In this document: one piece after another, positions 8,718 through 37,184 of the stretch | Layout: each line of letters starts with the position of its first letter | Numbering within the stretch: position 1 is the stretch's first letter | Source: Conexibacter sp. SYSU D00693 | GTDB lineage: Bacteria > Actinomycetota > Thermoleophilia > Solirubrobacterales > Solirubrobacteraceae | Direction: 5' to 3' | DNA length: 64,000 nucleotides | NCBI RefSeq assembly: GCF_017084525.1 | Contig: NZ_CP070950.1 | Span: forward strand, 124,001 to 188,000 | Position numbers and translations under genes: made by a program | Notes under the pieces: generated by a model | The model's database searches: none | What the model saw: the letters and a program-made list of their open reading frames with translations, nothing else | What the model was told of the DNA's origin: nothing

Positions 8718-9992
<1,275 letters not shown>

Positions 9993-35805: not shown

Positions 35806-35836
35806 ACGAAGGCCGCCTGGATCAGGCGGCCTTCGT
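35806..35836. terminator. Strong hairpin shared by convergent units
   Basis: ACGAAGGCCGCCTG, loop GAT, CAGGCGGCCTTCGT: a perfect 14-bp stem. It follows the small membrane protein gene (plus) and the tRNA-Ala unit (minus). The minus-strand read is followed by a CGTTC tail. It contains the stop codon of the nuclease frame. Confidence 0.7.
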
Positions 35837-36328
35837 GCTTCCAGTGGAGCTGAGGGGGCTCGAACCCCTGACCTTCGCGCTGCCAGCGCGACGCTCTCCC
35901 AGCTGAGCTACAGCCCCAAGTGGGTGTGCATCCGCCATCCTAACACCGGTCCGCTGGTTGTTCTTCGCCGCCCCAGGTCGCAGATGGACCTGCCGCACGC
36001 CTGCGATGTCCGATGCGGCAAGCGCGAAGCAGCGGTCGAGCGCGCCGCAGTACACCGCGAGGACGTCGATCTCGTCAGCCGTGTAGGTCGTGCTCACGTA
36101 GCCCCGCGGCGTGTGGCGGCTCGTGGAGGTCCGGACGACGATCACGTCGTCGAGCAGCCGCCCCCACTTGCACTGCACGCGGAGCAGATGTGGCCCCGTG
36201 TCGATGACCAGGTCATAGCGTCGGCCTTCGTTGTCCGGCCGTAGCACGACCCAGCCATGGCGGACCGCTTCGGCGGCGATCTCCGCCTCGGCCAGGGCCC
36301 CCTTCGCGTTCCTGGTCAGCTCCTCCAC
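35822..36328 (-). CDS. PD-(D/E)XK nuclease of the I-SspI-like family, frame running through tRNA-Ala
   Basis: 168 residues from GTG 36328. Residues about 1-130 match group-I-intron-associated PD-(D/E)XK endonucleases: TRNAKGALAEAEIAAEAVRHG, RYDLVID (Asp39) and LRVQCKWG, a Q-x-K active site (Gln52, Lys54) like the cyanobacterial homing enzyme I-SspI, then GYVSTTYTADEIDVLAVYC. Residues 138-162 (GAVAQLGERRAGSAKVRGSS) are the sense translation of the whole tRNA-Ala gene, and the stop lies in the terminator hairpin behind it. Whether the tRNA-encoded tail is made or removed by tRNA processing is unknown. The promoter (TAGCGT, 10 nt from the start) is inside a 16-bp palindrome. No intron is present in the tRNA. 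Confidence 0.8.
   Translation of the reverse strand: MEELTRNAKGALAEAEIAAEAVRHGWVVLRPDNEGRRYDLVIDTGPHLLRVQCKWGRLLDDVIVVRTSTSRHTPRGYVSTTYTADEIDVLAVYCGALDRCFALAASDIAGVRQVHLRPGAAKNNQRTGVRMADAHPLGAVAQLGERRAGSAKVRGSSPLSSTGSTKAA
35845..35917 (-). tRNA. tRNA-Ala, anticodon GGC
   Basis: 73 nt. The acceptor arms GGGGCTG and CAGCTCC pair fully and contain the G3-U70 pair that identifies alanine tRNA. D arm, anticodon loop CTGGCAG with anticodon GGC (reads GCC, the favoured Ala codon here), and GGTTCGAGCC in the T arm are normal. A73 is the discriminator; CCA is not encoded. It lies entirely inside, and on the same strand as, the 3' part of the nuclease reading frame. Confidence 0.96.
35937..35942 (-). 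promoter_or_regulatory. Possible -10 box (TAGGAT) of tRNA-Ala
   Basis: TAGGAT on the minus strand, 19 nt before the tRNA 5' end and inside the nuclease frame. It would allow tRNA transcription apart from the nuclease gene. Confidence 0.4.
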
Positions 36329-36334
36329 GACGAG

Positions 36335-36350
36335 GCGAACGCTAGTTCGC
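36335..36350. promoter_or_regulatory. Palindrome around the nuclease -10 box
   Basis: GCGAAC, GCTA, GTTCGC: perfect arms with a 4-bp centre. The minus-strand -10 TAGCGT (36344-36339) lies inside it, 10 nt before the GTG at 36328. This is a good place for autorepression. Confidence 0.5.
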
Positions 36351-36371
36351 CTGTCGGACGGACCCGAACGA

Positions 36372-37184
36372 CTAGCGCGAACCCGGGATGAACTCGGGGA
36401 CGTCGAGGTCGTCGCCGCCGCTGCGCGGACGCCGGCGGCGCCGGGGCGGCTCCTCCGAGAACCCCGCCGCCGCCTGGGCGAGGAGGGCGTCGGCCTCCGG
36501 GTCCCCGGTCGAGGTGGGGGCGGCCGGGGAGGGCTGCGTGCGCGCGGCGCGGTCGCGGTCGCGGTCGCGCGGCGGGGCGGCCGCCGCAGCGGAGGGGACG
36601 GGCCGGGCGCGGTGGGCGGCCGGGGCACCCTCGACCTGCGGCGTGGCGTCCTGCAGGCTCCCGACGAGGCGGCGATGCGCGACGCCCACGTCCTGGAGCA
36701 GGCGCTCGGCGTTGCGGCGCAGGGAGGTGGCGAGGTCGCTGAGGTCGCCCGAGAGGGCCTCGCCGTCGCGCTTGACGTCGCGGGCGACGGCGTGGGCCTC
36801 GAGGAGCACGTCGCGCGCGTCCTGCTGGGCGCGACGGCGGATGGCCAGCGCCTCCTCCTCGGCCTGGCCGAGGGTGCGGGCGTGGTGGGCGTCGGCCTCC
36901 GCGCGCACGCGCGCGGCCTCCTCGTGGATCGCCTGGACCGCCGCGGTGGCCTCCTGCTGGAGGCGGGCCGCCTCGGCCTGCGCGGCGGCGAGCACCTCGT
37001 GCGCCTCGGCCTCGGCGGCGTCGACGCGCATCTGGGCGGCGCGGGTCGCCTCGGCGATGCGCTCGTCGGCGCGCTGCTCGGTCTCGGCACGCAGCTGCTC
37101 GGCCGCCCGCTCGGCGGCCTCGACGATCGCGGCGACGCGCTCGCTGGCGATCTGGACGTCGGACGGACGTGGCTGCTCCGCCAT
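36372..37184 (-). CDS. DivIVA-like coiled-coil protein
   Basis: 270 residues. Residues about 10-175 are one long Ala/Glu/Arg-rich coiled coil (ASERVAAIVEAAERAAEQLRAE onward, with heptad spacing). The last 90 residues are low-complexity, proline and arginine rich, with DRDRDRAARTQPSPAAP and a short conserved-looking end DDLDVPEFIPGSR. No enzyme motif. Actinobacterial proteins of this kind help cell-pole or septum organisation, but this one is assigned by composition only. The frame has a TACCGT box 10 nt before the ATG. Confidence 0.7.
   Translation of the reverse strand: MAEQPRPSDVQIASERVAAIVEAAERAAEQLRAETEQRADERIAEATRAAQMRVDAAEAEAHEVLAAAQAEAARLQQEATAAVQAIHEEAARVRAEADAHHARTLGQAEEEALAIRRRAQQDARDVLLEAHAVARDVKRDGEALSGDLSDLATSLRRNAERLLQDVGVAHRRLVGSLQDATPQVEGAPAAHRARPVPSAAAAAPPRDRDRDRAARTQPSPAAPTSTGDPEADALLAQAAAGFSEEPPRRRRRPRSGGDDLDVPEFIPGSR

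Follow-up and report, generated by a model that had tools for sequence, protein, structure and literature searches.

A nuclease gene that ends at the first base of a tRNA gene: a probable intronless homing-type endonuclease docked on tRNA-Ala(GGC) in Conexibacter

Why should a nuclease gene have no stop codon of its own before the tRNA gene that follows it? The question was raised by an earlier note on a 64,000-nt stretch of the genome of Conexibacter sp. SYSU D00693 (hereafter the window), which described a PD-(D/E)XK nuclease frame passing in sense through an entire tRNA-Ala gene and ending in the terminator behind it. The anatomy of the locus, all of it on the minus strand, is as described: the frame runs from 36349 to 35825, 175 codons without a stop, and closes with a TGA at 35824-35822, within the terminator hairpin 3′ of the tRNA (35822..35843). 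The tRNA-Ala(GGC) itself is intact (35844..35917; called by ARAGORN, Rfam 65.3 bits), and in the nuclease frame it is translated as GAVAQLGERRAGSAKVRGSSPLSST. The nuclease gene (35918..36328) likely starts with the GTG at 36328-36326, from which its mRNA would probably be near-leaderless; counted from this start, the motif residues are D39 and Q52-x-K54, and base 1 of the tRNA (35917), which directly follows the final codon of the nuclease domain (35920-35918), opens codon 138 with no linker stop, all as the note had it. The absence of an intron was likewise borne out, Intron_gpI (group I intron) having no match in the window, nor at loci L006, L007 and L043. It is important to stress that an open frame through this tRNA is cheap, since the tRNA-Ala(GGC) genes seen here mostly give GA(V/I)AQLGER in frame 1; the unusual feature is a nuclease gene that ends exactly at tRNA base 1, rather than the open frame beyond it. 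A 92-nt tRNA-Glu called by ARAGORN elsewhere in the window (9128-9219, minus strand) has no Rfam match and is probably a false call.

Judged by sequence and predicted fold, the protein is an I-Ssp6803I-like PD-(D/E)XK nuclease of the Pfam family PDDEXK_5, the kinship that the earlier note had proposed. The PF11645 profile covers residues 15-142 (E=2e-26; 93.1 bits against a cut-off of 26.1), I-Ssp6803I (PDB 2ost) is matched by sequence at E=2.4e-6, and 2ost is also the best PDB match of the AlphaFold model (pLDDT 86; TM 0.71, E=7.7e-10). In the catalytic D...Q-x-K, all three residues are invariant in the broad alignment A1, while in alignment A3 D and Q are invariant and K exceeds 90%; A1 being too diverse for the collection scan, alignment A2 was used for that purpose. 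Purifying selection is evident in intact relatives, with dN/dS mostly 0.08-0.26 (0.47 for the pair with the window copy), and frameshifted and truncated copies coexist with them.

How general the arrangement is can be judged from PF11645 profile searches of 21 relatives and of 399 genomes of the host's class, 106 of which were positive. All seven matches in the relatives adjoin a tRNA gene, as do 110 of the 115 PDDEXK_5 loci in the class, where four of the others are cut by contig ends. The main class set accounts for 93 of 95 (the exceptions, L069 and L117, are at contig ends) and a weaker or fragmentary set for 17 of 20 (L248 and L250 end at the contig; L240 is without a tRNA). The docks in the class involve at least six tRNA identities, and no two of the three copies in the host genome share a tRNA: besides the window copy, L006 runs into tRNA-Ala(TGC) in antisense and L007 precedes tRNA-Tyr. 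With 43 tRNA genes in the 4.43 Mb of the host genome, a random gene would be expected within 200 nt of a tRNA gene in about 1% of cases or fewer, yet all three copies in this genome are that close. The arrangement is no accident; the earlier note's proposal of non-random docking is supported, and the layout recurs on other tRNAs.

The habit extends beyond the class. Elsewhere in the same phylum, 17 of 22 loci have a tRNA gene within 300 nt (Arg-TCT, Ala-GGC, Thr-CGT, Tyr-GTA followed by Thr and Met, or Thr-TGT), and of the remaining five, three lie 420-465 nt from a tRNA-Pro, L166 is about 490 nt off and L141 occurs with a group I intron. At L152, L155, L156 and L158-L160, from several genera of one other family, the nuclease lies about 125-180 nt before the Tyr-Thr-Met tRNA group. 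Thirteen homologues from phages and archaeal viruses were inspected, and in nearly every case the gene touches, overlaps or lies close to a tRNA gene; because large phages often carry tRNA clusters, weight was put on overlaps and on gaps of 0-24 nt. Overlap or contact in sense is found in Synechococcus phage Sf-FR1 (L271, 2429-2863; 21 nt of a tRNA-Val), Streptomyces phage Navo (L280; 22 nt of a tRNA-Ser), Pectobacterium phage My1 (L281, which overlaps or touches a tRNA-Ile, 7 nt) and Klebsiella phage K54_rec4 (L283, which meets a tRNA-Tyr at 0 nt), and the homologues of Jada, Wilder and HSTV-4 are at most 3 nt from tRNA genes. The Sf-FR1 homologue carries a NNQKTGVNLAEDY motif containing TAAATT. 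Close relatives of the window copy were not found on plasmids or in IMG/VR; where their hosts are named, these are nearly always Thermoleophilia or unclassified Actinomycetota MAGs.

Subfamilies of the nuclease are loyal to their tRNAs. An 87-row tree resolves into groups on Ala(GGC), Ala(TGC), Arg(CCG) and Thr(TGT), plus one Ser row, and requires four changes of tRNA identity, the minimum for five states, against 19-24 when the labels are shuffled. The side and orientation of the nuclease vary inside the Arg, Thr and Ala(TGC) subfamilies. Constant tRNA identity combined with changing geometry is as expected if the enzyme recognises its own tRNA locus, and the tree points to tRNA-specific targeting by the subfamilies. 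The tree also largely tracks host families, so that much of the distribution represents vertical descent with loss, and presence is patchy, PF11645 being missing from 293 of the 399 class genomes and from every one of the six relatives sampled in the same genus. Tandem PDDEXK_5 pairs precede tRNA-Ala(TGC) at L108 and L110, in two genomes of the host's family.

The earlier note had looked to relatives with an empty site and an intact tRNA, and same-genus genomes provide them at the corresponding locus. In same-genus genomes without a PF11645 match, the DivIVA-like coiled-coil protein gene that forms the upstream flank in the window (36372..37184, minus strand) is the immediate upstream neighbour of tRNA-Ala(GGC), followed further out by leuS in loci long enough to include it; the distance from the DivIVA-like stop to the tRNA is about 30 nt in L019 versus about 450 nt in the window. 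In two remnants, L020 (E=4e-7) and L014 (E=2e-6), only the last 28-31 nuclease residues are left against the tRNA, in L014 with a stop, and on this sequence evidence nuclease decay halts where the tRNA promoter begins. A free-standing homing endonuclease gene would be expected to show both occupied and empty alleles of a locus, and intact as well as decayed copies, and both were observed. The empty sites L019 and L032 have GGTGTTAAGATG or a one-base variant of it 5′ of tRNA-Ala(GGC); nuclease 3′ ends match these at 17/18 and 16/18 positions, where unrelated tRNA promoters, the control for the L019 match, reach 16. None of 32 other tRNA promoters has their GTTARGATG core, and these promoter sequences may be scars of lost nucleases, which is suggestive only. 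Co-conversion of the tRNA with the nuclease was considered and dropped: tRNA-Ala(GGC) is 84% identical between G000 and the empty same-genus genome G001, which is not exceptional because other tRNAs range from 75 to 100%.

What, then, does the abutment do? Docks are usually at the 5′ side of the tRNA and in sense, and other subfamilies have their own stop or an antisense tRNA. The sense docks on Ala(GGC) fall into three linker classes by the distance between nuclease domain and tRNA (class 1, 0-3 nt; class 2, 20-33 nt; class 3, about 70-92 nt); hardly any locus of class 1 or 2 has a stop ahead of the tRNA. Of the 29 class 1 loci, 28 have a -10-like TANNNT 15-23 nt 5′ of the tRNA, and every class 2 locus has one at 9-19 nt. 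In class 1 this box sits in the conserved C-terminal codons for the motif N-x-Q-x-x-G-V-N-W-A; the candidate box in the window, TAGGAT (35937..35942, minus strand), is 19 nt 5′ of the tRNA, in the nuclease codons GGT-GTT-AGG-ATG-GCG (G-V-R-M-A). In the abutting genes the V/I/L codon ends in A or T in 23 of 27 cases versus 16% elsewhere in the same genes (p=3e-15, a value that is too small because copies share ancestry, although the contrast between classes is still clear), compared with 2/31 where the tRNA is 20-33 nt further on and 0/5 in another set with the tRNA promoter further on. TANNNT itself is present there in 25 of 27 abutting genes and in 0 of 31 genes with the tRNA 20-33 nt further on. 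Abutting nuclease genes appear to contain the promoter of their tRNA.

The read-through itself does not seem to be under comparable constraint. Across all linker classes the tRNA starts in phase 0 at 48 loci and in phase 2 at 15 (two of class 3 included), with nine switches between these phases on the tree, and selection for frame 0 was accordingly rejected. Phase 1 occurs at three loci, all of them frameshifted, and at none of the intact copies; no stop seemed to close the phase 1 frame within the tRNA of the sequences read, yet no intact class 1 or 2 copy uses it. The first stop of the read-through may come as early as tRNA position 8 or as late as hundreds of bases further on. The earlier note would have taken a frame interrupted in most homologues as a sign of accident; the frame crosses the tRNA in most intact Ala(GGC) copies, while others stop at T8-A9-G10, at position 43 or far beyond, and in four of seven antisense docks, too, the nuclease frame closes within the tRNA. 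A functional tRNA-encoded tail was rejected, given stops at tRNA positions 8-10 or 43, just past the tRNA or in an antitoxin-like frame, and since tail length is not conserved the tail is probably incidental. In place of the strand, frame and spacing that to the note looked selected, the features that appear to be under selection are the abutment, the -10 box in the codons and the damage-type promoter described below, not the tRNA-encoded peptide with its varying length. By eye, from translation, a Phd/YefM-like antitoxin frame is seen directly behind the docked tRNA-Ala(GGC), in frame with the read-through, at L041, L046, L047, L056, L243 and L245.

At the other end of the gene lies a promoter of the type associated with DNA damage. 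A LexA (SOS) box, GAAC-TAGC-GTTC (36337..36348, minus strand; 36336-36349 in the CGAAC..GTTCG form), overlaps the -10 element (36344-36339) of a GTCCG-N10-TAGCGT promoter (36339..36359, minus strand), the layout of lexA promoters in the class. Exact GAAC-N4-GTTC occurs in 34 of 94 nuclease promoters, with 0.004 expected per promoter window, and precedes all nine lexA genes inspected in the class. In the host genome CGAACN4GTTCG has 19 sites, against none for the reversed control, including those before lexA and recN and one that overlaps the start of a dnaE2-like polymerase gene (read from translations). GTCCG-N10-TANNNT is found at spacing 10 in 29-33 of 93 nuclease promoters and in 0-1 at neighbouring spacings, and it is present in eight of nine lexA promoters of the class, one with an A-for-G variant. 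It resembles the mycobacterial RecA-NDp/PafBC motif tTGTCRgtg-8nt-TAnnnT (PMC5656591), although the letters differ in part; PafBC is reported to respond to single-stranded DNA (PMC11804915). The tallied loci of some subfamilies (Ala-TGC, Thr-TGT) have no LexA box, and no common operator was found among other inverted repeats in the promoters without it. Taken together, these elements suggest that the nuclease gene would be induced by DNA damage. LexA and PafBC/RecA-NDp promoters of actinobacteria usually drive repair genes, whereas here both the LexA box and GTCCG-N10-TANNNT precede a homing-type nuclease, for which no description of such control was found in the literature searched.

On balance we favour the reading that the window locus is a free-standing, homing-type nuclease of the I-Ssp6803I family that has docked on tRNA-Ala(GGC) with no intron involved, has captured the tRNA promoter and is induced by damage. 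This keeps the core of the earlier note's interpretation, a selfish-type nuclease anchored to a tRNA gene, and moves the emphasis from the tail peptide to promoter overlap and damage control. The sequence-based part of this reading consists of family and fold, tRNA adjacency, one tRNA per subfamily, occupied, empty and decayed alleles, the lexA-type promoter and the embedded -10 box. Mechanistically, the nuclease would cut nuclease-free alleles of its own tRNA locus, and recombinational repair would copy the gene into the cut allele, an intronless homing pathway of the kind described in PMC3984707. The damage-responsive promoter would ensure that the nuclease is made when single-stranded DNA and recombination are present, for example upon entry of foreign DNA. 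Since the nuclease gene has the promoter and base 1 of the tRNA as its 3′ end, capture of that promoter would make clean loss costly: a clean deletion would silence a needed tRNA, so that decayed copies would leave the last ~30 codons. The earlier note's claim that loss would break the tRNA is plausible in this form, as promoter capture, and the C-terminal remnants support it. The peptide read from the tRNA would be a by-product, and RNase P, in maturing the tRNA from read-through transcripts, should yield a nuclease mRNA that lacks a stop codon, which would limit expression. We put forward more tentatively the possibility that the tRNA is in effect held hostage, the nuclease having taken the promoter and first bases of a needed tRNA as its own 3′ end so that no clean loss can occur, with the stop-less mRNA made by RNase P keeping levels low outside DNA damage.

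The most serious rival, though an unlikely one, is a domesticated nuclease of the host's DNA-damage response, descended from a homing endonuclease, under LexA or PafBC-like control, and beside the tRNA by inheritance. The lexA-type promoter with its LexA box, the strong purifying selection, a tree that goes largely by host family and the rarity on vectors would all suit it, but a conserved repair gene would not need a tRNA, and the patchy presence (none of six same-genus genomes, absence from 293 of 399 class genomes), the decayed copies, the changing geometry, three copies on three tRNAs in one genome and the tRNA habit shared by phage homologues all argue against it. It is improbable that the nuclease guards the tRNA site, being made upon damage or incoming DNA to attack mobile elements that carry or integrate in the same tRNA gene. 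tRNA genes are common attachment sites for such elements, and the loyalty of subfamilies to one tRNA and the damage-responsive promoter would fit; however, integrases usually use the 3′ part of the tRNA gene whereas the docks are mostly at the 5′ side, no defence-gene neighbourhood was seen at the window locus, and phages themselves carry homologues. The same loyalty and promoter would suit an effector directed at the tRNA (an RNA cutter or a toxin) whose place beside its target serves regulation, but this is very improbable given that both the closest characterised relative and the best structural match is a DNA endonuclease, I-Ssp6803I, with the same D and QxK, and that no antitoxin partner is conserved across all docks. 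A chance overlap or inherited single-locus accident, with nuclease and tRNA functionally unlinked, is contradicted by the survey, in which 110 of 115 loci adjoin a tRNA gene, the class alone shows six or more tRNA identities, other geometries occur, and phages and archaeal viruses share the habit; it has almost no probability left, common as open frames through tRNA-Ala(GGC) are and even though one clade holds most tRNA-Ala(GGC) copies.

Read as homing-type genes, the tRNA-docked nucleases represent a variant of known free-standing homing endonucleases. They recall those of T4-like phages, such as SegB beside the T4 tRNA genes, in that a free-standing nuclease gene adjoins tRNA genes; SegB, however, belongs to the GIY-YIG nuclease superfamily, a different one, and the docked copies are chromosomal. 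Free-standing phage homing endonucleases spread by cutting nuclease-free alleles, and in the two sources on them neither fusion of a gene end with a tRNA and its promoter nor LexA-type control was found described (PMC3984707, PMC13096335). More broadly, no description of tRNA-docked PDDEXK nucleases, or of docking with promoter overlap, was found in the literature searched, mostly outside subscription journals. As with integrative elements, the tRNA gene serves as a conserved harbour, but those elements carry integrases and rebuild the tRNA 3′ end, whereas here a single gene of about 410 nt sits at the 5′ side with no integrase seen. Without an intron, free-standing homing genes in bacterial chromosomes can be deleted and have no obvious route to persistence; tRNA docking with promoter overlap would offer them one. 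The docked gene is also an example of a coding sequence on which a protein motif and the promoter of the adjacent tRNA act as simultaneous constraints. LexA-type control suggests a coupling of homing to DNA damage or DNA uptake, and Pfam PDDEXK_5 gains a function-linked context, tRNA genes, in bacteria, phages and archaeal viruses.

The nearest comparison is with I-Ssp6803I itself, the group I intron endonuclease of cyanobacterial tRNA-fMet (Bonocora and Shub 2001, cited in PMC3984707). Pfam family, fold, the D and Q-x-K motif and a tRNA gene as genomic partner are shared; unlike I-Ssp6803I, the docked gene lies outside an intact tRNA, without an intron, usually directly upstream in sense and behind a damage-type promoter. 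At L141 (1501-2110), an actinobacterial PDDEXK_5 gene in a 0.8 Mb genome, a group I intron lies directly behind or around the gene (Rfam 63.7 bits), making this locus a possible intron-type relative.
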